DNA of 64,000 nucleotides, taken from assembly GCA_023663725.1 (NCBI GenBank), contig JAMPGX010000018.1, positions 1 to 64,000 of the forward strand, read 5' to 3'. The notes below the pieces were generated by a model. It was not told the origin of the DNA and searched no databases. It saw only the letters and a list, made by a program, of their open reading frames with translations. How positions within the stretch are numbered: position 1 is the stretch's first letter; every line of letters starts with the position of its first letter. Positions 18,979 to 48,720 of the stretch are shown here, one piece after another. The position numbers were made by a program, and so were the translations under genes. Source of the stretch: a bacterium. Lineage in GTDB: Bacteria > Bacillota > Clostridia > Lachnospirales > Lachnospiraceae.

Positions 18979-19008
18979 ATGCCGAGAACATTTATTAGGC
19001 ATTTGTGA
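18979..19008 (+). other. Upstream open reading frame broken by the mobile element
   Basis: An ATG at 18979 with an excellent AAGGAGG eight bases upstream opens a nine-codon frame (MPRTFIRHL) that runs into the mobile element. If the element and one target copy are removed, the frame reads MPRTFIVERRLERE and stops a few bases past the GTG start of the first permease, over its ribosome site. This would be an arrangement for translational coupling. Confidence 0.45.
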
Positions 19009-19205
19009 AACTGTTTATTGCCAGTACCGAATTGTGCATATTGCATATTCCATAAGTAATGCCCTTTCGAACCGTCGGTACTTAGATGCCGTATTTTGGC
19101 ATCTTATGTACCGCTACGGTGAGAACGGAGCGAGAGCGTGCTTGCGTTGGAATATACAATGTGCACAATGACACTCGCATAGTAACCGAGTTTCGCAATT
19201 GTCTA
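18996..19205 (+). mobile_element. Small structured mobile element, subfamily 1, copy A
   Basis: 210 bases with ends TAGGCATTTGTGAAACT and (reverse complement) TAGACAATTGCGAAACT, flanked by the direct repeat AGAACATTTAT (18985-18995 and 19206-19216, one more T also matching). The interior folds into a 22-bp outer stem (19031-19052 with 19148-19169), an inner stem ACCGT-GGTAC/GTACC-ACGGT (19071-19081 with 19108-19120) and a variable apical hairpin. No protein is encoded. It sits between the promoter and the ribosome site of the fructan operon, so it is part of the mRNA leader. Confidence 0.85.
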
Positions 19206-19236
19206 AGAACATTTATTGTAGAAAGGAGACTTGAGC

Positions 19237-20196
19237 GTGAGTAATTCATCAACAGCGGCGGCAACCCCCAAGAAGTCCCTCGAACAGAAAAAAGCATTGC
19301 AGAGGAAATCTCTTGGAAAGCGGATTGCTAAATCATGGCAGCTTTATCTGCTGCTTTTGATCCCTATCATAATCACGATCGTGTATAAATACGGTCCAAT
19401 GTATGGTATACAGATCGCGTTTCGGGATTATAAGCCCAGACAGGGATTTTTTGGAAGTAAATGGGTAGGTTTTGACTGGTTTATCCGGTTTTTTACTGCC
19501 CCAAACTTTAAACGTATGATTATCAACACGATTAAGCTCAGCGTATTTGGACTTCTTTGGAGCTTTCCGGTTCCCATTATTCTCTCGCTGGTGATCAATC
19601 AGTTGCGATTTAAGCGTTATAAGAGAGTAGTGCAGACAATCCTTTACGCACCACATTTTATCTCAATCATGGTGGTCTGCGGTATGATCCGCATTTTCTT
19701 AAGTCCGTACGGTGGACTGATCAATCTGCTGAGTGGCGGACAGGTAGATTTTATGACAATACCGGAAGCGTTCCGCACGATCTACATATCTTCCGGCATC
19801 TGGCAGGACGCCGGCTGGGGGACGATCATCTATCTGGCGACGCTTTCCGCTGTGGATCCAGGACTCTATGAGGCGGCGAAGATAGACGGGGCATCCATGT
19901 TTCAACGGATTGTGAACATTGATCTCCCAGAGCTGTTGCCCATGATCATTCTACAGCTTATTATGAGTGCCAGCGGTATTATGAGTGTTGGATTCGAGAA
20001 GGTATTTTTGCTTCAGACAGAGTTAAATAAGGCGGCGTCGGATGTTATCGCCACCTATGTCTATCAGCAGGGTATTGTCGATCATATGTACAGCTACTCG
20101 ACGGCTATCGGTTTATTTAATACGGTCATCAATATTATTCTTTTGATTATTGTGAACAAGATAGCCAAGAAATTCGCCAATATAAGCTTTGTGTAG
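19237..20196 (+). CDS. Carbohydrate ABC transporter permease (LplB/YteP-like)
   Basis: 319 residues from GTG 19237, which has GGAG at eight bases; TTG 19231 is too close to it. Six membrane helices, with the binding-protein-dependent transport EAA motif at EAAKIDGASMFQRIVNIDLPEL, where the ATPase docks. This is the LplB branch of CUT1 sugar permeases, which works with an LplC-type partner (the next gene) and a large binding protein. No ATPase gene is present in the locus, so a shared MsmX-type ATPase encoded elsewhere is expected. The membrane domain imports the oligosaccharide released outside by the lipoprotein GH32 enzyme. Confidence 0.9.
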   Translation: MSNSSTAAATPKKSLEQKKALQRKSLGKRIAKSWQLYLLLLIPIIITIVYKYGPMYGIQIAFRDYKPRQGFFGSKWVGFDWFIRFFTAPNFKRMIINTIKLSVFGLLWSFPVPIILSLVINQLRFKRYKRVVQTILYAPHFISIMVVCGMIRIFLSPYGGLINLLSGGQVDFMTIPEAFRTIYISSGIWQDAGWGTIIYLATLSAVDPGLYEAAKIDGASMFQRIVNIDLPELLPMIILQLIMSASGIMSVGFEKVFLLQTELNKAASDVIATYVYQQGIVDHMYSYSTAIGLFNTVINIILLIIVNKIAKKFANISFV

Positions 20197-20209
20197 GAGG
20201 TGCGTCAAT

Positions 20210-21097
20210 ATGAAGATAAAAGCAAGCCGCGGTCTTTCAGACAGGGCCAGTGACATAATACTTATAGTGGTGACAGCTCTGATTCTGCTTGTGATCGCAT
20301 ATCCGCTCTATTATGTGATTATTGCCTCGGTATCCGATCCCTATGATGTGTACGCAGGCAAGACATTCCTGCTTCCCAGCCAATTTACACTTGAGGGTTA
20401 CAAGGCGGTCCTGAGCAACAGCAATCTGCTCAACGGTTTTCTGAACTCTGTGAAATACACAGTAATTGGAACTATCTTCTCGGTGGTGACAATCTATATT
20501 ACCGCTTATCCGTTGAGCTACAAGGACCTTCCGGGGCGCAAGGCAATCAGTATCTTCTTTATCATTACAATGTATTTCGGCGGAGGCCTGATTCCCACCT
20601 ATCTGGTGGTGCGCAACACTGGATTGCTTAACAATATGTGGGCGTTATTCCTCCCCGGAGGTATCGCTATGGGTAATGTCATAATTGTTCGGAACTTTTT
20701 TGAGAACAACATCCCCAAGGAGCTCGTTGAAGCGGCTCAGATTGACGGCGCGGACCATATGACGGTATTCACAAAGGTGGTGATTCCTCTGAGCCGTTCC
20801 ATCATGGCGGTAATGGTGGTGTTCTCCATGGTAGCTTATTGGAACGACTGGTTTACCGCTCTTATATACCTCAATGACGAGCAGGCTCCTTTCCCGCTGG
20901 TGTTACGGGGGATATTGATTACGACCTCAGCCATGAGCGACTTTACCAGCGGTGCAGGATACGCCGAAGCCAACCGTATTGCGGAGCTGGTAAAATTTGC
21001 GGCCATGATCATCGCGGCGGCGCCTATGCTTGCTATCTACCCCTTTGTTCAGAAGTACTTCGAACAGGGATTTATGAGCGGCGCGGTTAAGGGTTAA
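20210..21097 (+). CDS. Carbohydrate ABC transporter permease (LplC/YtcP-like)
   Basis: 295 residues, six helices, EAA loop EAAQIDGADHMTVFTKVVIPLS. The ATG at 20210 has AGGAGG nine bases upstream; the gap to the preceding stop is 13 bases. Together with the previous permease it forms the translocation pore of a CUT1 importer. The carboxy-terminal QKYFEQGFMSGAVKG is the characteristic end of this branch and touches the ATPase and binding protein in relatives. Confidence 0.9.
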   Translation: MKIKASRGLSDRASDIILIVVTALILLVIAYPLYYVIIASVSDPYDVYAGKTFLLPSQFTLEGYKAVLSNSNLLNGFLNSVKYTVIGTIFSVVTIYITAYPLSYKDLPGRKAISIFFIITMYFGGGLIPTYLVVRNTGLLNNMWALFLPGGIAMGNVIIVRNFFENNIPKELVEAAQIDGADHMTVFTKVVIPLSRSIMAVMVVFSMVAYWNDWFTALIYLNDEQAPFPLVLRGILITTSAMSDFTSGAGYAEANRIAELVKFAAMIIAAAPMLAIYPFVQKYFEQGFMSGAVKG

Positions 21098-21183
21098 GCG
21101 GATAGACAGGAACGAATTAATAAGTAGTATCTGCCGAAAGAGATAACGGAGGGCAGAGCAGGTATCTGAAAAGGAGGATCAAG

Positions 21184-22845
21184 ATGAAAAAGAGTATCTG
21201 GAAAAAAATGCTTTGTATGGGTCTTTCCACATGTGCAATAGCAACATGTCTTGCGGGGTGTGGAAATCAGTCGCAGACGCGAGGTGATGAGAACCAGACG
21301 GATTTTCTCATCGTGGGCGGTATGTCGGTTCTGAGTGCCGGTAATGACAGCAATCCGGTTCTCCAGGCGTTGGCGGAAAATGCTGGCGTAGAGATCGAAT
21401 GGGATTTGATGAGTGATTCCTTAGGGGAAAAGGTAGGTGTCCTCATCGGCGGCGATCAGCTTCCGGATGCGTTTATCGCCGTGAATTTCAGTATGAATGA
21501 TATCAATGACTATGGCGCAGATGGTACTTTCATCGACTTGACGGAGTATATCACTCCGGAGATTATGCCTAAACTCAGCACTATTCTGGAGGAGCACCCC
21601 GAGATCAGGTCTGCGATCACCATGGCAGATGGCGGCATCTATGGACTGCCCTCCGCGGATATGCTGCGTACCGGTGCGGTCAGCGATGCATATGATTACA
21701 GCATATACGCTGTTCCAGAATTCTCGATGATTAATAAGAAGTGGCTGGATGAGTTGAACCTTGATGTGCCTACCAATCTGACGGAGCTCCATGATGCTCT
21801 TGTGGCTTTCCGAGATAATGATATGGCAGCTAAGGTCTATGGTAATACTCAGGGAACCATTCCGCTGTCAACAGGCTTTGACCAGTGGTGCTGGGGGCAG
21901 GAAATCTTCTATTCCGGCTTTGGATTCACCAACTTTACCAGTGATATTTGTGCCGATCTGCTTGTAAATAGCGACGGTGATGTATATTTTGCAAGTACGA
22001 CGGATGCCTATCGGGATGCCGTAACCTATTTCCACGACTGGTATGCGGAAGGCCTGATGGATCTGGAGATGTTCTCCCAGTCCACCAATCAGCTTATCGC
22101 CAAGGCCTCCCAGGGTAGAGTTGGCGTCACTGTATGGTGGGAAAAGGAAGAAATCCTGGGCGAATATGCCGATGATTATGTCTTTTTACCGCCTCTGGAT
22201 GGTCCGGTAGGTACGAAATATGAAGGCTCTCATAATGTGAACCTCAGAGCCGGTACGGACGGTGTCACCTCCGGCAACCTGAACATCACCAGCGCCTGTG
22301 GCAATCCGGAATTGCTGCTGAGATATTTCGATCAGTGGTATGACGGGGAGACGGTTATGCAGCTCCAATATGGTCCTATCGATGTCTATTTTACAGAAAA
22401 GGATGAAAATGGCGTGTGGAAGAGTATCACGGATGAGGAGGCACAGAGTAAATTCAATCACAGCGCCGGCGAACTCAAGGGTCTCTATGAAGTGTATGGT
22501 CCCCGTCTGGTTCTTCCAGAGTACTATAATAACGTTTTCTACATGGAGGATCGGGCGACACAGCGTCTGGAGTATCTTGTGAACGATTGGTTCCCCTATG
22601 TGGAAAACAAACGGTTCTTCCCCTCCGATGCCACATTTACCAACGAGGAATTGGAGACTATCGCACGCTACAAGGCTGACTTTGTGAGTCAGATAGCAGA
22701 GAAAGAAGGCACTTGGCTCAAGAACGGCGGACCGACGGATGCCGAGTGGACTGAATATCTGGAGATGCTGAAGGACAGCTGCGGTATGGAGCGTTTACTC
22801 TCCGTATATCAGGATGCTTATAACAGATATAGCACGGCGGAATAA
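21184..22845 (+). CDS. Extracellular sugar-binding lipoprotein of the ABC importer
   Basis: 553 residues. Signal peptide with lipobox LAGC (C26), so the mature protein is lipid-anchored outside the membrane. The length and the pairing with LplB/LplC-type permeases match the LipO/family-1 solute-binding proteins for complex oligosaccharides. The AAAGGAGG-type site before the ATG at 21184 is strong. Position in the operon next to two GH32 genes suggests fructo-oligosaccharide or levan fragments as ligand; the sequence alone does not prove it. Confidence 0.88.
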   Translation: MKKSIWKKMLCMGLSTCAIATCLAGCGNQSQTRGDENQTDFLIVGGMSVLSAGNDSNPVLQALAENAGVEIEWDLMSDSLGEKVGVLIGGDQLPDAFIAVNFSMNDINDYGADGTFIDLTEYITPEIMPKLSTILEEHPEIRSAITMADGGIYGLPSADMLRTGAVSDAYDYSIYAVPEFSMINKKWLDELNLDVPTNLTELHDALVAFRDNDMAAKVYGNTQGTIPLSTGFDQWCWGQEIFYSGFGFTNFTSDICADLLVNSDGDVYFASTTDAYRDAVTYFHDWYAEGLMDLEMFSQSTNQLIAKASQGRVGVTVWWEKEEILGEYADDYVFLPPLDGPVGTKYEGSHNVNLRAGTDGVTSGNLNITSACGNPELLLRYFDQWYDGETVMQLQYGPIDVYFTEKDENGVWKSITDEEAQSKFNHSAGELKGLYEVYGPRLVLPEYYNNVFYMEDRATQRLEYLVNDWFPYVENKRFFPSDATFTNEELETIARYKADFVSQIAEKEGTWLKNGGPTDAEWTEYLEMLKDSCGMERLLSVYQDAYNRYSTAE

Positions 22846-22902
22846 GCAAGTGCTGATCAGCCAGACTCATTAGCAATGTATTGAGAGAAGAGGAGACATC
22901 TT

Positions 22903-25071
22903 ATGAATAAAATATTAAGAAAAACATTACCGCCTTTGCTGACAGTCTGTATGGCACTCGGCATCACAGCCTGCGGGGAAGATAGCGGTAAGAGCGGCAG
23001 CATAGCAGATGATATTGTCAACGGTGACTTCGAGGATGTAAGCGCGGGTTCTTGGGTCGGTTGGACCCGCCAGGATGCGGCGTTTAATTTCCGGGGTGTG
23101 GTTGACGCTGATGAGGTAAATGGCGCCCCCATTGAGAAATCAGGAAGTTACTTTTTCAGTGGCACGGCCGGAGGCAATCCGGCCATGCGGGGAACATTGA
23201 CCTCCGATGTGTTCAAGCTGGGCGGTAACGGTTTTATCACCTTTAAGATGGGAGCTGGAAAGAATACGGAGAAGGCATACGTGGAGTTCTTTGAAGAAGG
23301 GAATGATGTGGCCATTGCCAGGATTACGAATCCGGAATGCGACGGTGTATTCATCACCGATCATCTCATCACGAAGGTGGTGGATCTTTCCGCCTATGTG
23401 GGCAAAAATATCTACATAAAAGTGACAGACGAGGATGATGGCAACGACTTTTCCTATATCAACCTTGACGCTTTCAAGGTATGTACCACGGATGAGGAGG
23501 TGGCGGCAGCCAGGGCTGAGTACACACTTCAGATAGAGACTTACGGCGAGAAGCCCTTTGTGGAGGATGAGACTGCCACCGACATCGTAAATGGAGGTTT
23601 CGAGACAGGAGATCTCACGGGGTGGAAGACGCTGGAGGGCACAGCTCTGGTTCGCAGCGGAGTAGTTCCCACCAGCCAGTATTACTGGGAAGATCGCAGC
23701 GTTTACGGAGAAGGGGAGTATTATCTGGACGGCAGCAATAATGGCGCTATCGCGGAGAATCTTACCGGTGCAATCCGTTCCACGAAATTTACCCTTGCGG
23801 GAGATGGTTACATCTCCTTTATGATTGGCGCTGGCAATGGCGATTGCTACGTGGCGCTCTGTGACGGCGACACAGATGAGGAACTCATCACGGTGCGCAA
23901 TGAGTATTTTAATGATCCCTCTCTGGCGCTCACGCTTCTGCGCACTTACATGGACGCGAGCCAGTATATTGGCAAGGTGGTGTATCTCAAGGTGGTGGAT
24001 GCCAACGACGGAGGCGGTTTTGCATTCCTGAATGTGGATGATTTCCGAGTGTCCCTCACCGTTGACGAGGTAGCGGAGTTGGAGGTGCGTCAGATGGAAA
24101 AGGCGCAGGCGGAAGAATATAGCTCTGCCACCTACGATGACCTTGCCGCCATTCGCAATTATTACAACAGCTATCCCTATCCGGTGCCGCTTAATTCTCT
24201 GACCATTACCTCCTATGTGTCCAACAAGGTGGTATCCTGCGGCAGTGTGGATGTGACGACATACCTTGAAGAAGCGGCAGCCTCCTATGGCGGCAATGAA
24301 ATCAGTGATTTGGCAGTGTCGAAGGTGGTGACCGGAGATACGGAGATCACAGATGGCTTTGATGCGGTTGACATGAGCGCTCCCGGATATTATCATGTAA
24401 CATATACGGCAAGTTATGAGGGCGCTACGGCTGAAGCAACCTTCACTGTAGTTGCACAGGCTGACGACAGTACAATCGCCAACGGTGGGTTTGAGGCCGG
24501 CAATCTGGCTGGATGGACGGTTCTCACTGACGGTTGGAGCGTGGTTGACGGTCAGGCAGCCGGTGTGATCTCTGCTGAGAACTACTGGGGTGAGGCACTG
24601 CCCTACAATCAGGCCGGCGATTATCATCTGGATGGATGGAACACTGGCTTGGATGAGGGAGCAACCTGGGCGATTCAGTCCACAAACTTCACCCTCGCGG
24701 GCTCCGGCTATATCTCCGTGCGTATGGGTGGCCACGCAGCCGCGGTCCATGTGTATCTTGCTGATGGTACGGAAGTCGGATACTACAGGCAAAATCGCTT
24801 TAACGACGCCAATTTCCCCAGCGTGGGAGCAGGAGGTTCCTGGGCCGATATGGGGACCTATGTCATGGATTTGTCCGCTTATCTTGGCAAGGAGCTGTAT
24901 ATTGTTCTGGCGGATGAGCAGGCGGAAGGCTGGGCCCATGCTTTCTTTGATGAAGTGGTGACTTATTATGAGGCAGCTCCTGATTACGCGAATGAGGCGG
25001 ATGAGGTTCCCGATGGCGCCACCGGTGATCCGGTGCTGATTCCCTGGCAGCTTGCTGAAAATAATCTATAG
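22903..25071 (+). CDS. Surface lipoprotein with three carbohydrate-binding-like repeats
   Basis: 722 residues, lipobox ITAC (C24). Three homologous beta-sandwich-like modules start near residues 40, 229 and 526, each opening with NGxFExGxLxGW and ending with LSAYLGKELYI/ASQYIGKVVYL-type strands and an F/Y-L-N/D-D-F segment. This is the build of galactose-binding-like (CBM) folds. Between modules two and three (about 405-520) an Ig-like segment ends in PGYYHVTYTASYEGATAEATFTV. No catalytic motif is visible. In GH32 loci such modules usually bind fructan (for example CBM66), so a polysaccharide-capturing role is likely but inferred. The gene sits directly before the surface GH32 gene, 26 bases away. 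Confidence 0.75.
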   Translation: MNKILRKTLPPLLTVCMALGITACGEDSGKSGSIADDIVNGDFEDVSAGSWVGWTRQDAAFNFRGVVDADEVNGAPIEKSGSYFFSGTAGGNPAMRGTLTSDVFKLGGNGFITFKMGAGKNTEKAYVEFFEEGNDVAIARITNPECDGVFITDHLITKVVDLSAYVGKNIYIKVTDEDDGNDFSYINLDAFKVCTTDEEVAAARAEYTLQIETYGEKPFVEDETATDIVNGGFETGDLTGWKTLEGTALVRSGVVPTSQYYWEDRSVYGEGEYYLDGSNNGAIAENLTGAIRSTKFTLAGDGYISFMIGAGNGDCYVALCDGDTDEELITVRNEYFNDPSLALTLLRTYMDASQYIGKVVYLKVVDANDGGGFAFLNVDDFRVSLTVDEVAELEVRQMEKAQAEEYSSATYDDLAAIRNYYNSYPYPVPLNSLTITSYVSNKVVSCGSVDVTTYLEEAAASYGGNEISDLAVSKVVTGDTEITDGFDAVDMSAPGYYHVTYTASYEGATAEATFTVVAQADDSTIANGGFEAGNLAGWTVLTDGWSVVDGQAAGVISAENYWGEALPYNQAGDYHLDGWNTGLDEGATWAIQSTNFTLAGSGYISVRMGGHAAAVHVYLADGTEVGYYRQNRFNDANFPSVGAGGSWADMGTYVMDLSAYLGKELYIVLADEQAEGWAHAFFDEVVTYYEAAPDYANEADEVPDGATGDPVLIPWQLAENNL

Positions 25072-25097
25072 GCAAGGCTCAGATCAGAGGTGACGAA

Positions 25098-27467: not shown

Positions 27468-27486
27468 AACGCCTATAACACAATTA

Positions 27487-27714
27487 TAGACAATTGCGAA
27501 ACTGTTTTTTACCAGTACCGAATTGTGTATATTGTATATTCCATAAGCAGTGCTCTTTCGAGCCGTCGGTACCTAGGGTTGCTAGCAACCCTCGATGCTG
27601 TATTTTGGCATCTTATGTACCGCTACGGCGAGAACGAAGCGAGAGCGTGCCTGCGTTGGAGTATACAATGTGCACAATGACACTCGCAAAGTAACTAAGT
27701 TTCACAAACGCCTA
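27487..27714 (+). mobile_element. Small structured mobile element, subfamily 1, copy B
   Basis: 228 bases, ends TAGACAATTGCGAAACT and (reverse complement) TAGGCGTTTGTGAAACT, with the perfect 12-base target duplication ATAACACAATTA (27475-27486 and 27715-27726). The outer stem 27522-27543/27657-27678 pairs at all 22 positions (three G-U). The inner stem is GCCGT-GGTAC/GTACC-ACGGC. The apex carries two hairpins: one on GGGTTGCTAGCAACCC as in copy C and one on GATGC/GCATC as in copy A. It lies inside the fructan operon between the two GH32 genes. Confidence 0.88.
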
Positions 27715-27749
27715 ATAACACAATTACGGGGAAAGGAGCAGGGTTTTAC

Positions 27750-29237: not shown

Positions 29238-29258
29238 GCTTTATCGGTGGAGGTTGTG

Positions 29259-36876: not shown

Positions 36877-36967
36877 TAGACGATTGCGAAACTCTCTCCA
36901 CAAGTGACGTGACTGGTCTATATTGCCCATTCCCTGTTCCACAAAAGCGGCGTTTCACGATTGCCTA
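36877..36967 (-). mobile_element. Small inverted-repeat element, subfamily 2 (short form)
   Basis: 91 bases, ends TAGACGATTGCGAAACT and (reverse complement) TAGGCAATCGTGAAACG. Apart from a missing central loop it matches the reverse complement of the element at 9394-9536 (CTCTCTCC, ACTGGTC, TATATTGCCCATTCCCTG in order). The flanks ATATTATAACT (36866-36876) and ATATCATAACC (36968-36978) are an 11-base target duplication with two mismatches, so an older insertion. It lies 45 bases before the next gene. Confidence 0.75.
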
Positions 36968-39529: not shown

Positions 39530-39558
39530 TTGACATTCAATCTGACAAGTGGTATTTT
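39530..39558 (+). promoter_or_regulatory. Promoter of the small lipoprotein gene
   Basis: TTGACA (39530-39535), 17 bases, TATTTT (39553-39558). A leader of about 200 bases follows. It can form a stem ATCCC-G/CGGGAT (39625-39669) that encloses a GCCT/AGGC hairpin and two copies of GATAAAC placed symmetrically (39631-39637 and 39658-39664). No known riboswitch is recognised. Confidence 0.6.
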
Positions 39559-39765
39559 ATGGTTACAGGCCGTAGAGCTTTGCAAATATCAGTTCAAGAA
39601 AGTTTTATAAGTATGTGGTTCTGTATCCCCGATAAACAACAGCCTGACAAGGCAGGAGATAAACGGGATGGAAGTGCAGGACGGCTTTGACGCGAGGGTG
39701 TGAGGGTACATAAAGATTAGCGGATGTAGTTCCGGCATACAGGGGGATAGGGAAAGGAGAAGATT

Positions 39766-40119
39766 ATGAAAAAGATAAGGTTTTTGGGAATTGCCATTCT
39801 GACAGCAGTTATACTTTGTGCCTGCGGCGGGCAGGAACTGGCGGACATAAGCACCACAGAGGGTGACGGGTACATGGCTATCATATGGGAGGAAAGGACG
39901 TATGTGCCGTTCTGCGTGGTCTCCAAGAATGACTGCGGGACGCTGATCGGCTATGTCAACGGGGATACGGGCGACAGGGTATGTGAATACAAGGATTATC
40001 CGTCAAATGAATGGATTGCAAATTATCTTACTGTGGACGGTGGCGCAATGCTGTTTAAAGAGGTAAATGTTACTAATATTCCGGATGGCCTGCAGTCAGA
40101 GTACGAGTGGAATGATTAA
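39766..40119 (+). CDS. Small lipoprotein, function unknown
   Basis: 117 residues with signal peptide and lipobox LCAC (C20), so anchored outside. The mature part (about 97 residues) has a beta-rich pattern with tryptophans and three cysteines (one after the lipid-bearing C20 region: VVSKNDCG and DRVCEY). No family recognised. AAAGGAG lies seven bases before the ATG. An eroded mobile-element end follows the stop. Confidence 0.7.
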   Translation: MKKIRFLGIAILTAVILCACGGQELADISTTEGDGYMAIIWEERTYVPFCVVSKNDCGTLIGYVNGDTGDRVCEYKDYPSNEWIANYLTVDGGAMLFKEVNVTNIPDGLQSEYEWND

Positions 40120-40151
40120 GAACTTTTGATGCGTTCTGGGTGGCAAGACAC

Positions 40152-40200
40152 CATGTGCACAATGACACTAGCAAAGTAACTGGCTTTCGCAAAAGCCTTA
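40152..40200 (+). mobile_element. Remnant of a subfamily 1 mobile element (right end only)
   Basis: From ATGTGCACAATGACACT to TTTCGCAAAAGCCTTA the sequence follows the right end of copy B (27667-27714) nearly base for base. The left part and outer-stem partner are missing. It ends 12 bases before the ribosome site of the DUF2975 gene. Confidence 0.7.
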
Positions 40201-40231
40201 ATACATACTAACAGGAAAGGAATACAGAGAA

Positions 40232-40681
40232 ATGAACAGAGACACGATAATCAAGATTACCAAATATTTGGTGGACTTTATGTTTTTGGCCGGCATTGTG
40301 GTGACATTGTCCCTGCCCTGGAGTATAAAATGGGCGGGAAAATATCTGGAACGTCTTGCCGAGAGCTATGGGGAGATCGTCACGATCTACTTTGTGCTGG
40401 GGATTCTGGCGCTGGCAATCATCTGGGAGCTGCGCAAGATGTTTAAGACCGTGCTGGCCAAGGACTGTTTTGTGAGAACTAACGTGGCCAGTCTGAAGCA
40501 TATGAGTTACTACAGCGGGCTGATCGTGTTGATGTCCGTCGTGCGCAGCATCGTCTATACCACAGTGGCCATGCTGGTCGTCATCCTGGTGTTCGTCATA
40601 GCCGGACTGTTCTGTCAGGTGTTGGCGCAGATTTTTGACGAGGCAATCAGCTATAAGGAAGAGAACGATCTGACGATATAG
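40232..40681 (+). CDS. DUF2975 membrane protein
   Basis: 149 residues with four helices (about 14-33, 48-66, 91-108 and 112-135) and the typical cytoplasmic segment LRKMFKTVLAKDCFVRTNVASLKHM. DUF2975 proteins are almost always paired with a small YozG-type Cro/XRE regulator, here the next gene. Their role is unknown; they are thought to modulate the regulator at the membrane. The AGGAAAGGAATACAGAG region provides the ribosome site. Confidence 0.85.
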   Translation: MNRDTIIKITKYLVDFMFLAGIVVTLSLPWSIKWAGKYLERLAESYGEIVTIYFVLGILALAIIWELRKMFKTVLAKDCFVRTNVASLKHMSYYSGLIVLMSVVRSIVYTTVAMLVVILVFVIAGLFCQVLAQIFDEAISYKEENDLTI

Positions 40682-40757
40682 GGCGCGGGATAGGGAACAG
40701 GTGCGATAGAGAATACTTGGCCGCAGCTTTGATCTGAGGCAGAGAGGAAAAGAGAAA

Positions 40758-41006
40758 ATGTCAATTGTGATCAATCTGGATGTGATGATGGCAAAGCGGA
40801 AGAAGGGCCTGACAGAGCTGGCGGGCGAGGTGGATATCACGCTTGCCAATCTGTCCATCTTAAAAAATAATAAGGCCAAGGCAGTGCGCCTGGCTACGTT
40901 GGACGCTATCTGCAAGGCGCTTAACTGCCAGCCGGGAGATATCCTGGAGTATGTGGAGGATGAGGAACAAGGAAAAACAGCTAATCAAAACGCTGGGGAG
41001 GAGTAA
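40758..41006 (+). CDS. YozG-like Cro/C1-type helix-turn-helix regulator
   Basis: 82 residues with a single helix-turn-helix: VMMAKRKKGLTELAGEVDITLANLSILKNNKAKAVRLATLDAICKALNCQPGDILEY when read in parts, the exact YozG pattern. The acidic tail (VEDEEQGKTANQNAGEE) is short. It probably controls this small operon. It follows DUF2975 by 76 bases and precedes the DUF4173 gene by four bases. Confidence 0.9.
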   Translation: MSIVINLDVMMAKRKKGLTELAGEVDITLANLSILKNNKAKAVRLATLDAICKALNCQPGDILEYVEDEEQGKTANQNAGEE

Positions 41007-41010
41007 CGAT

Positions 41011-42771
41011 ATGGAAAATATGCAAAGCAATATCTGGCAGGAGCCTGAAAGCGGCGCTGCGGCGCAGGGCCAGAATATGCAAGTAGAGGACCTGGATGCC
41101 GCAAGGCCAGGTATGCCAGCGCCCAGTGCTAGACCAGGAGGACAGCCAGGGACGCCAGGCGGAGCTTTTCCTCCAGCGGGAGGCCCCGTCCTCATGCCGT
41201 GTCCCCCGAAAAAACCGGATACGCCGGAGACAAAGAACATGAAGGAGAATTTCCAGATATTTGGCATGGCGTCCTTTCTGTACGCCTGTCTGTACGTCTT
41301 TTGCATGTACCGCAACGGTAGCGGGGTGACATACCCTTTTTTCGTGGCAGGAAGTCTCTTGTTTATCTGTTATTGCTGTGCAAAACTGGGGATTTCCTTC
41401 AAAAAAGGCGGCGCCTTCTATGTGATCAGCATGATGCTGCTGGCCATATCCACTTTTTGCACCGACGACGGCAGGATCATCACGCTAAATAAATTGGGGA
41501 TATTTCTGTTGGCTATAAGCTTTTTGCTGTTTACGCTGTATGACACCAGCAAATGGAATTTGGTCAAATACCTGGGAACGATCTGCCAGACTGTGTTTGT
41601 ATCCTTCAATGAACTGCCTCGCCCCTTCGAGGATGCGAGCTGGTATGTGAAGCATAAGATGAAGCGCAAAAACAGCAAGGTATTGTATGTGATATTGGGG
41701 CTGGTGATCGCACTGCCTATCTTTCTGGTCGTGTTTGCGCTGCTGGTCAGCGCGGATGCCGTGTTCAGAGATATGACGGATAAGATATTGGAGCAGCTTC
41801 GCATTGAAAATATGATGCTGGCGCTGTTTATGTGGGCCTGTATGTTCCTGGCCTCCTACTGTATCCTGAGCTTTCTGTGCAAGAGGACGATTCAGGCGGA
41901 GGTAAAAGACAGCCGCAGGGGAGAACCGCTGATTGCCATCACCATCGCTACTTTATTGACGCTGTTGTACCTGGTTTTCAGCGTGATTCAGATCGTCTAT
42001 CTGTTTGCAGGCAATATGACACTCCCGTCGGGATACACTTACGCGGAGTACGCCAGAGAGGGTTTCTTTCAACTGCTGGCGGTCAGCGTCCTGAATCTGA
42101 TTCTGGTGTTGATTGGTCTGGGATGTTTCAAGGAGAGTAAATTGCTGAAAGGGATACTGACAGTGATGTCACTATGCACCTATATCATGATTGCTTCCAG
42201 CGCCATGCGGATGATTATCTATATCAGGTGGTATTATCTCACCTTTCTGCGGATTTTTGTGCTGTGGAGTCTGGCGGTGCTGCTTTTGCTTTTCACAGGA
42301 GTCATCATCTCGATCATAAAGAGCAGCTTTCCGCTGTTTCGCTATAGTATGGTGGTAGTGACGCTGTGCTATATGGCGCTGTCCTTCAGCCATCCGGATT
42401 ACTGGATCGCCAGAGTGAATGTGGCCAGCACAAACCTGGTCACCCGCAGCGATTTCTTTGAGGGAAAACCCTATGAGGATTATGACTTCCTGAGTCAGCT
42501 CAATGCGGATGCGGCGCCCGTGCTGCTCGATCTGATGGTAAGGGAGGGGTACGATCTGAACTTCTACTATGAGGAGGAACCCCTGCAGAGCCGACGGGAT
42601 CTGGCCAAGGAACAGGGCGACACCTTCAGCCGAAGAGACCCGCAGTGCTTTGGATATTACTATCTGGATCGGCTCAAAGCCAGGAATTCCCGAAACGGCA
42701 TCAGAACCTTTAACGTTTCGAGATTCCTGTCAGAATTTGAGATATTGTCGGAATGTACGAAAGGGATGTAA
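41011..42771 (+). CDS. DUF4173 polytopic membrane protein
   Basis: 586 residues from ATG 41011 (GGAGGAG upstream). A proline- and glycine-rich cytoplasmic head (about 1-85) precedes twelve or so helices. Family marks include the DTSKWNLVKY segment, AVFRDMTDKIL and YAEYAREGFFQLLAVSVLNL; the soluble tail starts near SHPDYWIARVNV. DUF4173 proteins lie next to DUF2975/YozG-type regulators in many Firmicutes. No function is established. The gene ends 19 bases before the convergent ABC-F gene, with no obvious terminator between them. Confidence 0.85.
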   Translation: MENMQSNIWQEPESGAAAQGQNMQVEDLDAARPGMPAPSARPGGQPGTPGGAFPPAGGPVLMPCPPKKPDTPETKNMKENFQIFGMASFLYACLYVFCMYRNGSGVTYPFFVAGSLLFICYCCAKLGISFKKGGAFYVISMMLLAISTFCTDDGRIITLNKLGIFLLAISFLLFTLYDTSKWNLVKYLGTICQTVFVSFNELPRPFEDASWYVKHKMKRKNSKVLYVILGLVIALPIFLVVFALLVSADAVFRDMTDKILEQLRIENMMLALFMWACMFLASYCILSFLCKRTIQAEVKDSRRGEPLIAITIATLLTLLYLVFSVIQIVYLFAGNMTLPSGYTYAEYAREGFFQLLAVSVLNLILVLIGLGCFKESKLLKGILTVMSLCTYIMIASSAMRMIIYIRWYYLTFLRIFVLWSLAVLLLLFTGVIISIIKSSFPLFRYSMVVVTLCYMALSFSHPDYWIARVNVASTNLVTRSDFFEGKPYEDYDFLSQLNADAAPVLLDLMVREGYDLNFYYEEEPLQSRRDLAKEQGDTFSRRDPQCFGYYYLDRLKARNSRNGIRTFNVSRFLSEFEILSECTKGM

Positions 42772-42790
42772 ATAAAGCGAAGTAGTTCTG

Positions 42791-44347
42791 TCAAAATATC
42801 CGCGTGGTCCATCGGGTACAATCCCACACATCGGTAGCCAGGCCCTCATAGAATTCCGGTTCATGGCAGACCATCAGGATGCTGCCCTTATATTCCAGAA
42901 GGGCGCGCCGCAGCTCAGCCTTGGCATCTACATCCAGATGGTTGGTGGGTTCGTCCAGTAGCAATACATTGGATGCCTGGTTGATCAGCTTGCACAGTCG
43001 CACTTTGGCCTGTTCACCGCCGGAGAGAACTCGTACCTTGCTCTCAATATGCTTGGTGGTCAGGCCGCATTTCGCCAGAGCGGAGCGCACCTCGTACTGG
43101 GTAAAGCCGGGAAAGGCATTCCAGATCTCCTCGATACAGGTGGTGTCTATATTCTGGTCCATCTCCTGCTCAAAATAGCCGATCTCCAGATAATCCCCCT
43201 GCTCCACGGAGCCGGACAGGGGTGGAATCAGGCCAAGGATGCTCTTTAGCAGAGTGGTCTTGCCAATGCCGTTAGCGCCGGTGAGGACGATCTTCTGACC
43301 TCTCTCCATCTCCAGATTCAGTGCGCTGGACAGAGGCTCCTCGTATCCGATCACCAGATCACGAGTCTGAAAGATATATCTGCCGGGGGTGCGCGCTTCT
43401 CGAAAATGGAATTCCGGCTTGGGCTTTTCTCCGGCCAGCTCGATGACCTCCATCTTATCGAGCTTTTTCTGGCGGGACATGGCCATGTTGCGGGTGGCTA
43501 CCCTGGCTTTGTTGCGGGCCACGAAATCCTTTAGCTCAGCGATCTCCTTCTGCTGCCTGTTGTATGCGGCCTCCCGCTGAGCCTTTTTCATGGCATAGAC
43601 TTCCTGAAATTTGTCGTAGTCTCCCACATAGCGGGTCAACTGCTGATTGTCCATATGGTAGATCAGATTGATGACACTGTTTAAAAAGGGGATATCGTGG
43701 CTGATGAGAATAAAAGCATTCTCATATTCATTCAGGTATCTTTTCAGCCAAGTGATATGCTCGGCATCCAGGTAGTTGGTGGGCTCATCCAGCAGTAAGA
43801 TATCAGGTTTTTCCAGCAGCAGCTTGCCCAGCAGCACCTTGGTGCGCTGGCCGCCGCTGAGTTCTGTCACATCCCGTTCCAGACCGATCTCCGCAAGTCC
43901 CAGCGCCCGTCCCACCTCGTCCACCTTGGAGTCAATCATATAGAAATCGTGCTGGGTGAGTAGCTCCTGCAGAGTGCCGAACTCCTCCATATATTTATCC
44001 AATTCCTCAGGGGAGGCCTCCGCCATTCTGTCACACAGTCGGTTCATCTCCATCTCCATCTCGTAGAGAAAATCGAAGGCGGAGGAAAGTACCTGCCGTA
44101 TTGTCATGCCTGGCTGCAACGCTGTGTGCTGGTCCAAGTAGCCCGCCCGAACATTTTTGGCCCACTCTATTTTGCCCTCGTCCGGCGTCAGCTTACCAGT
44201 GATGATATTCATAAAGGTGGATTTGCCTTCGCCGTTGGCTCCCACCAGTCCGATATGTTCCCCCTTCAGCAACCGGAAGGACACATCCTGAAAGATGGCC
44301 CTGTCCCCAAAGCCGTGCGTCAGATGTTCTACATTTAAGATACTCAT
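42791..44347 (-). CDS. ABC-F family ATPase (translation factor/ribosome protection type)
   Basis: 518 residues from ATG 44347 (CAGGGG site); an upstream in-frame start would lie in the promoter. There are two ATPase domains and no membrane helix. First Walker A GANGEGKST, signature ELSGGQRTK, LLLDEPTNYLD; second GANGIGKTT, VLSGGEQAK, LLLDEPTNHLD. The linker between (about 235-300, rich in K/R/Q) is the P-site tRNA interaction motif. ABC-F proteins act on the ribosome, either as housekeeping factors or as antibiotic resistance proteins; this one resembles the YbiT/YdiF housekeeping branch more than resistance types, but that is a weak call. Confidence 0.88.
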   Translation of the reverse strand: MSILNVEHLTHGFGDRAIFQDVSFRLLKGEHIGLVGANGEGKSTFMNIITGKLTPDEGKIEWAKNVRAGYLDQHTALQPGMTIRQVLSSAFDFLYEMEMEMNRLCDRMAEASPEELDKYMEEFGTLQELLTQHDFYMIDSKVDEVGRALGLAEIGLERDVTELSGGQRTKVLLGKLLLEKPDILLLDEPTNYLDAEHITWLKRYLNEYENAFILISHDIPFLNSVINLIYHMDNQQLTRYVGDYDKFQEVYAMKKAQREAAYNRQQKEIAELKDFVARNKARVATRNMAMSRQKKLDKMEVIELAGEKPKPEFHFREARTPGRYIFQTRDLVIGYEEPLSSALNLEMERGQKIVLTGANGIGKTTLLKSILGLIPPLSGSVEQGDYLEIGYFEQEMDQNIDTTCIEEIWNAFPGFTQYEVRSALAKCGLTTKHIESKVRVLSGGEQAKVRLCKLINQASNVLLLDEPTNHLDVDAKAELRRALLEYKGSILMVCHEPEFYEGLATDVWDCTRWTTRIF

Positions 44348-44386
44348 GGTAATCCCCTGCCTTTCTCGCGATTCGTTTCCTATGGA

Positions 44387-44415
44387 AGTATACAGGATAT
44401 CGGCGGCTTTGTCAC
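44387..44415 (-). promoter_or_regulatory. Promoter of the ABC-F gene
   Basis: On the minus strand GTGACA (44415-44410), 17 bases, TATACT (44392-44387), 40 bases before the ATG. The leader is short and has no attenuator, unlike inducible resistance ABC-F genes. Confidence 0.55.
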
Positions 44416-44459
44416 GTGCAAAATGCAGGACCTCATTATTCTGGTCAGACAAAAGCTTA

Positions 44460-44488
44460 TTGATAGAATAGGACTCCTGTGTTATACT
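44460..44488 (+). promoter_or_regulatory. Promoter of the 44522 gene
   Basis: TTGATA (44460-44465), 17 bases, TATACT (44483-44488), 34 bases before the ATG. Confidence 0.6.
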
Positions 44489-44521
44489 CAACGCAGCAAA
44501 TGGAATTGAGGTATAAAGGAT

Positions 44522-45031
44522 ATGGCAAAATTTCGGATTGATACAACAGAGTTGTATTGGATTGACGGGAGTATAGATGATCCTGAAGATTTATGTTTGC
44601 ACGGTCATGCCATTGCCTATATTGGCGAAGAACGTTTGGAATATGACTGTACCGTCAGTGCAACGGCCCTATATCTGCTCAAAACATTGACAGAGGACCA
44701 TATCATCAATGAGGATAATCAAATGCTGCCTTGCTGCGGACATTTTTATATGCCCGATACAAATCTGGAAAATGTGAAAATCCTGGGCTGCAATCATGGA
44801 ATTGATTGGACAGTAAGGCACAGGGGAAAAGATGTTGTTCTGACCACGGAAAACGGGACCAGGGAGATCATTCCGCTTGTGGAATATAGGCAAGAGGTAT
44901 ATCGGTTTGCAGACAAAATTGAAGAATACTATAAATCTTGTTCGCCAAAAATAATGCCGGAGGATTCATTCAGCCGCGATGGATATATTGCGTTTTGGAA
45001 CGAATGGCGCCGGCGAAGAACAAAAAATTAA
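44522..45031 (+). CDS. Conserved-looking cytoplasmic protein, function unknown
   Basis: 169 residues, no signal or membrane segment. A beta-rich N-terminus (FRIDTTELYWIDGSIDDPEDLCLHGHAIAYIGEERLEYDCTVS when read through) is followed by a cysteine- and histidine-containing stretch (MLPCCGHFYMP, LGCNHGIDW) that could bind a metal. The C-terminus ends in a basic helix. The compact composition and good promoter argue for a real gene. I do not recognise the family. Confidence 0.7.
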   Translation: MAKFRIDTTELYWIDGSIDDPEDLCLHGHAIAYIGEERLEYDCTVSATALYLLKTLTEDHIINEDNQMLPCCGHFYMPDTNLENVKILGCNHGIDWTVRHRGKDVVLTTENGTREIIPLVEYRQEVYRFADKIEEYYKSCSPKIMPEDSFSRDGYIAFWNEWRRRRTKN

Positions 45032-45119
45032 GAATTTTTAAGGATACATTTTCCAGAAGATAGGCTATACTAAAAATATTATGATATGTCGCTTGCACTT
45101 GGCGGCAGAAAGGAGTATT

Positions 45120-45782
45120 ATGAAAAAACTGGCAGTACTATTTATGACAGCAGTTCTGACCTTGAGCCTGGTAAGCTGTGGCAAGGGAAATGACGAGGGA
45201 GAAGGAACCGGAGCGGGAGGCGATCAGCAGTCCACGGTCGAAGATTCGACGCAGGACACGCAGCCGGAGAGCAGTTCCCAACCGGAATCGGATTCACAGT
45301 CCCAGGAATCTTCTCAGACGCCTGAGGATGGACAGGACGGTATCAGCGAGGACATGAGCGCGATCCGTCAGGCAGTGGTGGATGAGTTGGGAGACAATTA
45401 TTGGCCGGACTCTCAGATTCCGCCTGAATATCTGGAAGCCTATGGCCTTACCAGCGACATGTATGTGGATTTCTGGGGTGAGATGCCGATGATCAGCACC
45501 AATGTGGATACCATCATCGTCATCAAGGCGGCCGAAGGGCAGATAGACGCTGTGGAGACCGCACTGAACAGCTACCGTGACACTCTGGTAAATGATACGA
45601 TGCAGTATCCCATGAACCTGGGGAAGATTCAGGCGTCCCGAATCGAGGTCGTGGATGATTACGCCTGCTTTGTGCAGTTGGGAGCAGAGGTGATTGACAT
45701 GGAGGAAGAGGAGTCCATCCGTCATTGCCAGGAACAGAATGAAATGGCATTGGCCGCCATAGAGAAGGTCATCCGGCAATAG
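45120..45782 (+). CDS. DUF4358 lipoprotein
   Basis: 220 residues. Signal peptide with lipobox LVSC (C20), a long S/Q/E/D-rich linker (about 22-75), then the DUF4358 domain (about 80-205; YLEAYGLTSDMYVDFWGEMP, VIKAAEGQIDAVETAL). The ATG at 45120 is supported by AAAGGAG. DUF4358 genes are usually found with MBOAT acyltransferase and DHHW genes, as here; a role in surface polymer acylation is suggested by that link only. 12 bases to the next gene. Confidence 0.85.
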   Translation: MKKLAVLFMTAVLTLSLVSCGKGNDEGEGTGAGGDQQSTVEDSTQDTQPESSSQPESDSQSQESSQTPEDGQDGISEDMSAIRQAVVDELGDNYWPDSQIPPEYLEAYGLTSDMYVDFWGEMPMISTNVDTIIVIKAAEGQIDAVETALNSYRDTLVNDTMQYPMNLGKIQASRIEVVDDYACFVQLGAEVIDMEEEESIRHCQEQNEMALAAIEKVIRQ

Positions 45783-45794
45783 GAGTATGACAGT

Positions 45795-47210
45795 ATGGTA
45801 TTTAGCAGCATTACCTTTTTGTTTCGGTTTTTGCCGATATTCCTGATCCTGTATTTTGTGACTCCCCGGAGGATGAGAAACGTCATCCTCTTTTTGGGGA
45901 GTCTTGTTTTTTATGCCTGGGGAGAGCCGGTGTATGTGGTATTGATGCTCTTTTCCACTGTGTCGGACTATCTGCATGGCCGTCTGATCGGCGCGTGCAA
46001 GAGCAGGAATGTGGCCAGGGGGCTGCTGATCTCATCCATCGTGATCAATCTGGGAATTCTGGGCTTTTTTAAATACAGTGATTTCCTGATCGGCACTGTC
46101 AACGGGCTGCTGGGGTGGAGCATTCCCCTGTTGGAGCTGCCCCTGCCCATCGGTATCTCTTTTTACACCTTTCAGACTATGTCCTATACCATTGACTGCT
46201 ATCGCGGAGAGGCCAGAGTGCAGAAGAATATTCTGGATTTTGGCGTCTATGTCACGATGTTCCCGCAGCTGATTGCCGGCCCGATCGTCAAATATCGGGA
46301 CGTGCAGGAGCAGCTTCATGACCGTCGGGTGGATCTGATGGCTATCAGTCGGGGGTGTTGCAGGTTCACGGTAGGTCTGGCCAAGAAGGTGTTGCTAGCC
46401 AACAATCTGGGACTTTTGTGGACAGAGATCTCCGGAAAGAGTCCGGAGAATATGACTGTGCTTGCAGCCTGGATGGGCGTGTTGGCCTTCGCATTTCAGA
46501 TATATTTTGATTTTTCCGGATATTCTGATATGGCTATCGGGCTGGGCGCGATACTGGGCTTCCATTTTCCAGAGAATTTCAATTATCCCTATATTGCGGC
46601 CTCCATCACAGATTTCTGGCGCAGATGGCATATCTCCCTGAGCAGCTGGTTTCGGGAGTATGTCTATATCCCGCTGGGAGGTAATCGCAGGGGCCTGCCC
46701 AGGCAGCTTTTAAATATTCTGATTGTGTGGACATTGACCGGAATCTGGCACGGCGCCGGATGGAATTTCCTCCTGTGGGGCCTGTGGTTTGCCCTGTGGC
46801 TGGTCCTGGAAAAGCTGGTGTTTGGACGGGTGCTGAAGGTGCTGCCCGCCATGGTGGGACGTCTGTATACCTGGGCGATCGTGCTGGTGGGCTGGGTGTT
46901 TTTTGCGATTGAAAAGGGCGGCGGAGCTCTCAGCTATCTGCGCGTCATGTTCGGACAGGCAGCGGCGGGGCTCTATGACGAGGGAACCTTATTTACCCTG
47001 TTGGAGTATCGGGTGTTGCTGTTCGTCGCAGCAGTAGCTTCCACTCCGCTGATCTATAGGATTACAGGAAGGCTGTTGCACGCTACTGGAGGCGGAGCGG
47101 TGGCATGCCGTCGGGTTCTGGAGAAGCTGATCCCTTCTCTGCTGCTCATCTCTTCCATCGCCTATATCGTAGAAGCCTCCTACAATCCATTTCTATATTT
47201 TCGGTTCTAA
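45795..47210 (+). CDS. MBOAT-family O-acyltransferase (AlgI/DltB-like)
   Basis: 471 residues with about eleven helices. MBOAT core: YFDFSGYSDMAIGLG, FWRRWHISLSSWFREYVYIPLGG and LTGIWHGAGWNFLLWG, whose histidine is the catalytic residue. AlgI-type members move acetyl groups across the membrane for O-acetylation of surface polysaccharides, with an AlgJ/AlgX/DHHW partner outside, which is the next gene. AGGAG lies nine bases before the ATG. Confidence 0.93.
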   Translation: MVFSSITFLFRFLPIFLILYFVTPRRMRNVILFLGSLVFYAWGEPVYVVLMLFSTVSDYLHGRLIGACKSRNVARGLLISSIVINLGILGFFKYSDFLIGTVNGLLGWSIPLLELPLPIGISFYTFQTMSYTIDCYRGEARVQKNILDFGVYVTMFPQLIAGPIVKYRDVQEQLHDRRVDLMAISRGCCRFTVGLAKKVLLANNLGLLWTEISGKSPENMTVLAAWMGVLAFAFQIYFDFSGYSDMAIGLGAILGFHFPENFNYPYIAASITDFWRRWHISLSSWFREYVYIPLGGNRRGLPRQLLNILIVWTLTGIWHGAGWNFLLWGLWFALWLVLEKLVFGRVLKVLPAMVGRLYTWAIVLVGWVFFAIEKGGGALSYLRVMFGQAAAGLYDEGTLFTLLEYRVLLFVAAVASTPLIYRITGRLLHATGGGAVACRRVLEKLIPSLLLISSIAYIVEASYNPFLYFRF

Positions 47211-47318
47211 ATCGCGCTTAGGCGCGTGCCGCCAATACAGGAGAGCTCGAAGCTGATATTTTATCTTTTAATTAGTGCAGGATCACAGGCATAGCCAGTG
47301 ATATGCGGAAAGGATCTC

Positions 47319-48452
47319 ATGAAGCTGGACAATGACAAACTACATGCGGGAATGACGGTGGCGTTGCTGGCTCTGGTGCTGGCACTGCTGGCCGTGGCGG
47401 ACCTGGTGAAAGAGGACCGCCTTTTCTCGGAGACGGAGAACAGAATATTGGCGCAGAAGCCCAAGTGGAGTCTGGAGGGTATCCTGAGCGGCAGCTACGA
47501 GAAGGAATATGAGACCTATGCCACGGACCAGTTCGTCAGCAGAGATACCTGGGTCATGCTGAAGACCCGCATGGACATCGCGCTGCAAAAAAAGCTGATA
47601 GGCGGCGTCTATCTGGCACAGGACGGCTACCTGATAGAGCAGCATCTGCCGGAGGAATACAGTCAGGAGACAGTGGATAAGCGTCTGGACCAGCTGCAAA
47701 AGCTGACAGAGCGATATCCGAACACCCTGGTTATGCTGGTCCCCACAGCGGACAATATATTGCAGGATAAGCTTCCCGCCCATGCGGTCAGCTATGACCA
47801 GAGAGGGCTGATCGCGCAGGTCAGGGACAGGATCGGCGAGAGTCATGTTGTCGATGTATTTCCGATATTGGAGGAGCACAGCGAGGAGCAGATCTATTAC
47901 AAGACGGACCATCACTGGACGACGCTGGGGGCATACTATGGCTATCTACAGTGGACGCAGACCGCAGGGGAGCAGCCTCGCAGCTATGACCTTCAGGAAT
48001 TGACAACGGTGTCGGACAGCTTTCTGGGAACCCTGCATTCCCGTATCAATCTTCCGATGGAGGCCGATGAGATTCAGATTTTCCCCAGAACCCTCAGACG
48101 CAAGGTGAAGATCACATACGACTTTGAACGCGAAGCGGACAGCTACTATGAGCCATCCTATCTGGAGGGCAAGAATCAGTATGGATATTTTCTTGATGAC
48201 AACCATGCCTTTATCGAGATCCATACGGCTTATGCGGCCAACGATAAGGAGCTCTTTCTGATCAAGGACTCCTACGCCAACTCGCTGATTCCCATATTGG
48301 CCCCCCACTATGAAACGATCTATGTGCTGGATCTCCGCTACTACAATGGCAGCCTGTTCACCCTGATGGACCAGTATGTAACCAGCGATAAAGTGAGCGT
48401 GATGGTGATGTACAACTGCATTCACTTCCTGGAAAATTTTTCTTACCGATAA
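47319..48452 (+). CDS. DHHW-motif protein (AlgX/AlgJ-like partner of MBOAT)
   Basis: 377 residues from ATG 47319 (AAGGA site). One N-terminal membrane anchor (about 10-28), then an SGNH-like outside domain. Its naming motif is in YYKTDHHWTTLGAYYGYLQW, and the catalytic-serine region appears as LFLIKDSYANSLIPILAPHY. It probably transfers acyl groups, delivered by the MBOAT protein, to a surface polymer. The spacer 47211-47318 shows nothing. Last gene of this three-gene set. Confidence 0.88.
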   Translation: MKLDNDKLHAGMTVALLALVLALLAVADLVKEDRLFSETENRILAQKPKWSLEGILSGSYEKEYETYATDQFVSRDTWVMLKTRMDIALQKKLIGGVYLAQDGYLIEQHLPEEYSQETVDKRLDQLQKLTERYPNTLVMLVPTADNILQDKLPAHAVSYDQRGLIAQVRDRIGESHVVDVFPILEEHSEEQIYYKTDHHWTTLGAYYGYLQWTQTAGEQPRSYDLQELTTVSDSFLGTLHSRINLPMEADEIQIFPRTLRRKVKITYDFEREADSYYEPSYLEGKNQYGYFLDDNHAFIEIHTAYAANDKELFLIKDSYANSLIPILAPHYETIYVLDLRYYNGSLFTLMDQYVTSDKVSVMVMYNCIHFLENFSYR

Positions 48453-48511
48453 TACATGTGGACAGATTATCACATGATAACTAGATTTCTGCATTGCATT
48501 ATAACCGCAAT

Positions 48512-48720
48512 GATGACAAAATTTGAGCCAATTATATGCCAGTACCGAATTGAGCAACTGGTATACTCCATAAGCAGGCTCTTTCGAACTGTCGGTACCT
48601 AGGGTTGCTAGCAACCCTAGGTACCGCTACAGTGAGAACGAAGCGAGAGCGTGCCTGCGTTGGAGCATACCAGTCGCTCAATGACACTAGCAAAGTGACT
48701 AAACTTTACAGTTACCCAAT
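48512..48720 (+). mobile_element. Small structured mobile element, subfamily 1, copy C
   Basis: About 209 bases, aligned with copies A and B from CAGTACCGAATTG through ATGACACTAGCAAAGTGACT. The termini are eroded and no target duplication is visible, so it is older. The outer stem 48549-48570/48661-48682 still pairs at 20 of 22 positions, although several of its bases differ from those in A and B. The inner stem is ACTGT-GGTAC/GTACC-ACAGT. The apex is a perfect 32-base palindrome centred on GGGTTGC-TA-GCAACCC. It lies directly before the ribosome site of the HAD gene. Confidence 0.8.

Follow-up and report, generated by a model that had tools for sequence, protein, structure and literature searches.

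The DNA analysed here is a stretch of 64,000 nucleotides from a bacterium of the family Lachnospiraceae (assembly GCA_023663725.1, contig JAMPGX010000018.1, positions 1 to 64,000 of the forward strand; hereafter the window). It contains three short sequences, copies A, B, and C, with like ends and a like fold. The initial annotation had proposed that they represent a mobile element family with covarying internal stems and possibly a mobile structured RNA. All three belong to a family of non-autonomous transposons, miniature inverted-repeat transposable elements (MITEs), with approximately 100 copies in the genome. In our preferred reading, to which we assign a probability of roughly 55%, this MITE is mobilised by an IS1182-like system and carries a separate core module, which owes its preservation to the folding of its plus strand, with RNA the most likely form.

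All three copies lie on the plus strand and were found at the places reported before. Copy A (18996 to 19205) has the ends TAGGC...GTCTA and an 11-bp target duplication, AGAACATTTAT, on both sides (18985 to 18995 on the left and 19206 to 19216 on the right). Copy B (27487 to 27714; ends TAGAC...GCCTA) is flanked by two GH32 genes and by a 12-bp duplication, ATAACACAATTA (27475 to 27486 and 27715 to 27726), and copy C (48514 to 48718) has diverged ends, no clear target duplication, and a distal hairpin of the GGGTTGCTAGCAACCC type. The left and right arms of the 22-bp stem P1 occupy positions 19031 to 19052 and 19148 to 19169 in A, 27522 to 27543 and 27657 to 27678 in B, and 48549 to 48570 and 48661 to 48682 in C, and each copy has a P4 hairpin of the form GC-GAGA-GC with a GNRA loop (19130 to 19137, 27639 to 27646, and 48643 to 48650, respectively). 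Taking G-U as paired, P1 pairs at 21 of 22 positions in A, 22 of 22 in B, and 20 of 22 in C; between B and C, both arms change at stem positions 5, 10, and 12, exactly as described in the annotation, and likewise at position 9 (T-G to A-T). The stems, including the compensated inner ones, and the near-invariant stretch GAGAACG.AGCGAGAGCGTGC also agree with that description. Compared with dinucleotide shuffles, the copies fold with z scores of -9.05 (A), -6.29 (B), and -10.84 (C), and none of 200 shuffles folded as well. A scan of the whole window with Rfam 15 gave nothing at the gathering threshold. The pattern of A, B, and C is not a product of chance, since 99 copies scoring above 100 bits were present in 338 kb fetched from the same genome.

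This genome (3.6 Mb in 49 contigs) yielded 52 matches from 40 scored candidates in a nucleotide search, with copy C not among the matches listed, and 144 matches, reverse-strand echoes included, with a covariance model built from 46 copies (R1). The count of 99 was obtained after 18 of 117 matches, which scored below 100 bits, had been set aside. A typical copy starts with TAGNCNATTGCGAAAC and finishes with the complement of TAGNCNATTGCGAAAC; with at most one mismatch, the end pattern occurred 89 + 73 times, compared with 14 + 3 times for the pattern read backwards, as expected of terminal inverted repeats common to dispersed copies. A clear target duplication (score of at least 8) was seen in 24 of 76 copies with intact ends, the 23 copies lacking one or both ends being left out, whereas the mean for shuffled flanks was 0.03%. 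The commonest duplication length was 11 bp, within a range of 10 to 12 bp for the system. The MITE copies, with listed lengths of 177 to 252 bp, contain no internal transposase gene. Terminal repeats, target duplications, and a copy number near 100 thus bear out the proposed mobility.

The likely mobiliser was reached via contig ends carrying the same terminal repeat. A gene for a 485-residue transposase is located on contig C44 of the window's genome (G000:C44:70-1524, minus strand; locus L244), and a domain scan of its product identified DUF772 (43 bits). With the IS1182 model NCBIfam NF033551 it scored 78 bits, under the equivalog cut-off of 270 bits, and is therefore named IS1182-like only. 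This autonomous copy is incomplete in the assembly, its ends being split over contigs C44 and C33; one of them, the repeat TAGGCGTTTGCGAAACGCC on C44, is positioned 19 nt before an AGGAGG and 33 nt before a GTG. Contigs C33, C19, and C44 all start inside copies or ends of the IS1182-like element. Complete examples occur in other genera: seven of ten transposase relatives, 63 to 86% identical, have the same end repeats on both sides (L292, L294, L295, L297, L299, L300, and L301), L296 has variant ends, and L293 and L298 have one end only. Duplications of 12 bp were readable around L292, L294, and L297. The ends and the duplication length common to both link the MITE to the transposase, and, as judged from sequence, the IS1182-like DDE transposase of the same genome very probably moves the MITE in trans. 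That the MITE constitutes a new family belonging to the IS1182-like system has good support. In the proposed mechanism, the IS1182-like transposase would recognise the TAGNCNATTGCGAAAC ends, make duplications of 10 to 12 bp, and often land approximately 30 nt before start codons.

Inside these ends lies the core, in which the long stem P1 is capped by a three-way junction with a conserved helix (CGGUAC/GUACCG), a variable distal hairpin, and the GC-GNRA-GC hairpin. In a sequence-only alignment (A4), 25 of 28 pairs showed compensated changes. A second alignment, A5, comprises 101 sequences drawn from some 80 genomes and is biased towards the model to which it was fitted. In it, 94.2% of the cells are paired and two-sided changes occur at 27 of 28 pairs, a level reached by none of 500 shuffles, with 589 two-sided cells compared with 147 in the shuffles. 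Under a tree-preserving null (40 replicates, our own simplified version of the R-scape idea), 18 of the 28 pairs exceeded all 40 null values; the ten failing pairs include several with hardly any variation. Four other column pairs also exceeded all nulls, two of which extend P1 outward and one of which adjoins a pair. Covariation across many genera in excess of this null shows that the inner stems are selected as a fold. The checks recommended in the annotation, a covariance model of collected homologues and a comparison with Rfam, gave strong covariation and no Rfam match over the core. Specifically, a scan of ten loci (E up to 1) found no match at the gathering threshold over the core; two sub-threshold miRNA models overlapped elements (L104 and L110), and the flanks contained one sub-threshold snoRNA model as well as RNase P and an L10 leader above threshold. 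The core is, on good evidence, a structured family new to Rfam with one strand selected in its main stem. That the element is an ordinary hairpin MITE whose pairing is explained by inverted repeats alone would agree with the end repeats and target duplications, but is very unlikely, as the covarying part is the inner core, beyond the end repeats, and is found family-wide in other arms. As a separate observation, three of 45 aligned copies from the window's genome (C2:101490, C44:8081, and C45:191720) have the internal loop GAGAA replaced by TTTTTC, with the partner strand changed too, which makes a continuous stem out of the loop.

Selection of the plus strand as a fold would allow G-U there but not A-C. 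For the window's genome, this was analysed in 94 of the 99 copies, five being left out. P1 contained 135 G-U compared with 22 A-C cells, whereas the outer end repeats of the same copies contained 147 and 142; counted as tree events, G-U and A-C amounted to 42.6 and 18.0 in P1 and to 50.6 and 85.6 in the end repeats. In other genomes, P1 showed 96 G-U and 37 A-C among 115 of 124 copies, along with 151 other mismatches (p = 3.2e-7; arms aligned ignoring wobble, nine copies with poorly aligned arms left out). The excess of G-U over A-C is large in P1 and absent from the transposon ends, so the inner stem is evidently selected on one strand. The asymmetry was the same in copies sense (44 G-U, 16 A-C) and antisense (30 and 11) to the neighbouring gene, with 22 and 10 in the remaining ones, indicating that it is the element's own strand, not the neighbour's transcript, to which selection on P1 is tied. 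The corresponding test in the window's genome, with five G-U and three A-C terminal-branch events in 17 antisense copies, has too few events. Selection of the fold within the host mRNA was considered, and the wider sense/antisense test speaks against it.

These strand counts also bear on mutational upkeep, in which palindromes correct themselves by template switching, so that the arms covary without function. Many two-sided changes fall within a single branch (41 in P1), and at a locus common to genomes G267 and G492 the arms differ, with 696 of 742 positions identical in the right flank and 372 of 444 in the left, both of which would suit such a process. Self-correction is strand-blind, however, yet G-U exceeds A-C on one strand of P1; it leaves the GNRA rule and the conserved junction bases unexplained; and the outer end repeats of the same copies are 76% paired compared with 98% for P1. 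Upkeep alone is thus an improbable explanation.

The initial annotation had left open whether the fold is selected as RNA or as single-stranded DNA, and with one strand selected these are indeed the correct alternatives. Of 101 sequences, 99 have a GNRA hairpin loop, and six of the eight possible GNRA loops were seen; the second loop base is C 15 times and the third a pyrimidine once (n = 101, the sequences being related). This rule favours RNA, and action of the core fold as RNA rather than as single-stranded DNA is accordingly favoured, not proven. If the fold were instead selected as single-stranded DNA, the plus-strand hairpin would be a substrate of a strand-specific recombinase or hairpin-binding enzyme, like folded attC sites or repetitive extragenic palindrome (REP) hairpins, and the core could pass between palindrome tips. 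Selection of one strand whatever the direction of the neighbouring gene, the presence of the same core on palindromes with different arms in G267, and the lack of an apparent promoter would all fit. On the other side, a pyrimidine as third loop base only once in 101, despite 15 instances of C as second base, is an RNA-type rule, and no transposase or recombinase family was among the 25 commonest of 168 Pfam families in 115 neighbouring reading frames. Nor was there a clear replication-strand bias, with 14 leading versus 9 lagging among 23 full matches in two genomes (not significant; three weak or partial matches left out). Selection as single-stranded DNA is a possibility that we regard as doubtful.

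Matches to model R1 occurred in 25 of 61 genomes, every one of the same genus, and a broader core model (R2, 43 sequences) found matches in 125 of 299 genomes and 124 of 298 genera of the Lachnospiraceae, the host family; these counts and those of the samples that follow include the window's genome. In an order sample, all 30 matching genomes of 295 belonged to this family, as did four of the five matching genomes in a phylum sample of 398; the fifth (G1058), of another class, had six matches with clear cores at L316 and L321. Copy numbers per genome obtained with R2 are lower bounds, since 9 to 12 candidates were scored in each and the filters lose weak matches. The relatives with the element include a Lachnospiraceae metagenome-assembled genome (L065). 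Two unannotated human faecal scaffolds labelled 'Bacteriophage sp.' also matched the core, L234 (MT838426.1) with 71 bits and similar terminal repeats and L235 (MT837545.1) with 31 bits; a search of viral contigs with two exact patterns found nothing, and one query for plasmid carriage gave no match.

The outer arms around this core differ between genomes. The core module sits in arms common to a genome's copies and with the same or a very similar terminal repeat in G000, G211, G154, and G248, and also in G370 and G117, whereas other repeats flank it in G328, G111, and G048/G018 (by eye). In G267, with 11 copies, arms are 0.58 identical between copies (random 28-mers, 0.54) and cores 0.74, whereas the two arms of one copy are 0.83 complementary; G350, G240, and G048 resemble it in less extreme form, and some G350 copies are plain duplicates. 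Such arm divergence could arise from long-lasting selection on the stem, from copying between arms, or from passage of the core to new palindromes. A tentative but serious possibility is that the core leads a life of its own as a folded module, selfish or symbiotic, with selection acting on its own strand regardless of the neighbour's direction. Such a module may perhaps cap palindromes of several transposons as well as copy-specific stems, being tied to no one transposase, and would, on the same tentative footing, have spread through much of a single bacterial family and into another class, where at least one genome has it. Close pairs of copies in opposite orientation, approximately 20 to 330 bp apart, were noticed at L184, L185, L096, L100, L121, and L344 to L347; three of them, in G350, look like duplicates of one unit.

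Several results weigh against our preferred reading. As tree events, the P2/P3 pairs of the core are even (43.8 G-U, 42.0 A-C) and the variable apical pairs are reversed (3.8 and 11.6), both sets being defined by a single fold of copy B, which has a tip unlike that of most copies. The single-branch two-sided changes in P1 are about as many as the changes to G-U, which suggests that copying between arms or between copies contributes. GNRA-like loops are tolerated in DNA hairpins as well, as are G-T pairs. There is no apparent conserved promoter, and in some genomes the arms outside the core are hardly alike between copies; a promoter and terminator scan returned for B a single promoter-like match, on the minus strand, and for A no promoter-like match but one weak terminator-like site, numbers close to those expected by chance. 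Finally, the core occurs in 11 of 27 host-family genomes with the transposase and in 114 of 272 without it (transposase presence at E up to 1e-40, fragments included; co-occurrence counted from two lists). Having no association with the core across the family, the transposase was rejected as the cause of its distribution. We nevertheless retain the reading of an IS1182-like-mobilised MITE whose core would be preserved for the fold of its plus strand, most likely in RNA form, and may serve the element itself or act via a trans-acting partner, rather than as a leader of the neighbouring gene.

A leader function had been suggested by the initial annotation, in which every copy was said to have the orientation of the gene downstream and to lie either just before its ribosome site or within an operon. 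This orientation holds for A, B, and C, but not for the wider family. With starts called by a simple rule (ribosome-site motif plus 60 open codons; not a gene caller), 50 of the 99 copies in the window's genome had a start and its ribosome site no more than 100 nt away on the downstream side alone, 17 on the other side only and hence antisense, 6 on both, and 26 on neither. This sense bias (50 versus 17, p = 6.7e-5) and the direct precedence of ribosome sites by A, B, and C would fit a cis-acting mRNA leader, with which the copies regulate or protect the gene they precede. Among 95 core matches in other genomes, however, orientation is nearly even, with 27 sense and 27 antisense between genes and 31 versus 23 where a start lies within 130 nt. 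The adjoining genes are of mixed function; in their 115 reading frames and 168 Pfam families, the commonest, with 6 members, were sugar-nucleotide epimerases. The annotation had named missing covariation and random orientation as results that would count against it: covariation is strong, and orientation outside this species is about even.

Elements that lack the core provide a further comparison. A second type of element, 143 bp long, combines an inner palindrome of its own with the terminal repeats of the MITE and lies at 9394 to 9536 of the window (plus strand) between 10-bp duplications, CTACCCGTGA (9384 to 9393 and 9537 to 9546). It occurs at nine other loci (L166, L169, L177, L179, L090, L128, L017, L164, and L176), and several copies show duplications of the 10- to 12-bp kind. 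Five of these ten loci place it 20 to 45 nt before a start, and two more at 46 and 53 nt. The MITE copies end at the same distance from a start codon in 40 of 50 sense cases (median, 30 nt) and in 14 of 17 antisense cases (median, 32 nt), and the single autonomous copy examined sits at a similar distance. Since coreless and antisense elements share this siting, the position just before ribosome sites seems to reflect how the insertion system behaves, or which insertions survive, rather than core function. A leader role, as had been proposed from this position, is not supported. With the siting of coreless elements, the even orientation elsewhere, and the equal strand asymmetry in antisense copies, the cis-leader was rejected as the main explanation, and we consider it unlikely. 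Copies at L264 and L265 lie between genes of what appear to be operons for fatty acids and dTDP-rhamnose, which shows that such operons can tolerate an insertion. The window further contains a 91-bp element with the same terminal repeats (36877 to 36967), which by eye looks like the 143-bp type shortened and reversed, and the right-third fragment of another MITE copy (40136 to 40198, plus strand; profile positions 157 to 219, 40.4 bits).

No paper was recognised as describing this element in the literature consulted; the catalogue of PMC8040213 (supplementary tables) may include it. In the portions consulted, PMC3446304 describes bcr1-bcr3 of the Bacillus cereus group as MITE-like and often within transcripts, and PMC2229807 reports a proposed action of the Neisseria NEMIS hairpin via RNase III. 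Like these, and like NEMIS/Correia, RUP, and ERIC (PMC2229807) and the Bcr1 stem-loop families (PMC2267715, likewise in part), the present element is small, intergenic, hairpin-forming, MITE-like, and partly in transcripts. Unlike these repeats as described there, it has a multi-branched core that covaries across genera and keeps one P1 strand as outer arms and ends change; those portions of PMC3446304, PMC2229807, and PMC2267715 give no account of a covarying core outliving its end repeats. With REPs and CGTC-tagged palindromes (PMC3733652), it shares high copy number and intergenic location, and some REP dimers lie inside longer palindromes; REPs are 20 to 40 bp long with an unpaired GTAG or CGTC tag (PMC3733652). 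Membership among REPs was rejected: of 101 sequences, 52 have GTAG at the look-alike position of the minus strand and 71 have CGTC at that of the plus strand, and these positions are for the most part paired and vary between sequences. A tyrosine (Y1) transposase, of the kind associated with GTAG-type REPs, was not among the 25 commonest families of the 115 neighbours, whole genomes not having been searched for it.

The mobiliser resembles IS1182 insertion sequences in matching their model and having DUF772, and differs in falling below the 270-bit cut-off. The core resembles Rfam structured RNAs in its covariation, GNRA loop, and junction, but matches none at gathering thresholds, so Rfam-based searches would not report it. 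Integron attC sites are selected as one folded strand and have variable stems; the core is like them in both respects, but unlike them it occurs in dispersed copies and has no recombinase among its commonest neighbours. About 40% of the genera sampled from the host family have the core in the same fold, and it offers two testable cases, a transposable element with a structured module that its transposase does not explain, and an insertion system often landing just before ribosome sites. Hairpin repeats tend to be classed as transposon ends in decay; the present copies contain an internal control, with their ends evolving as plain DNA and their inner stem as one folded strand.

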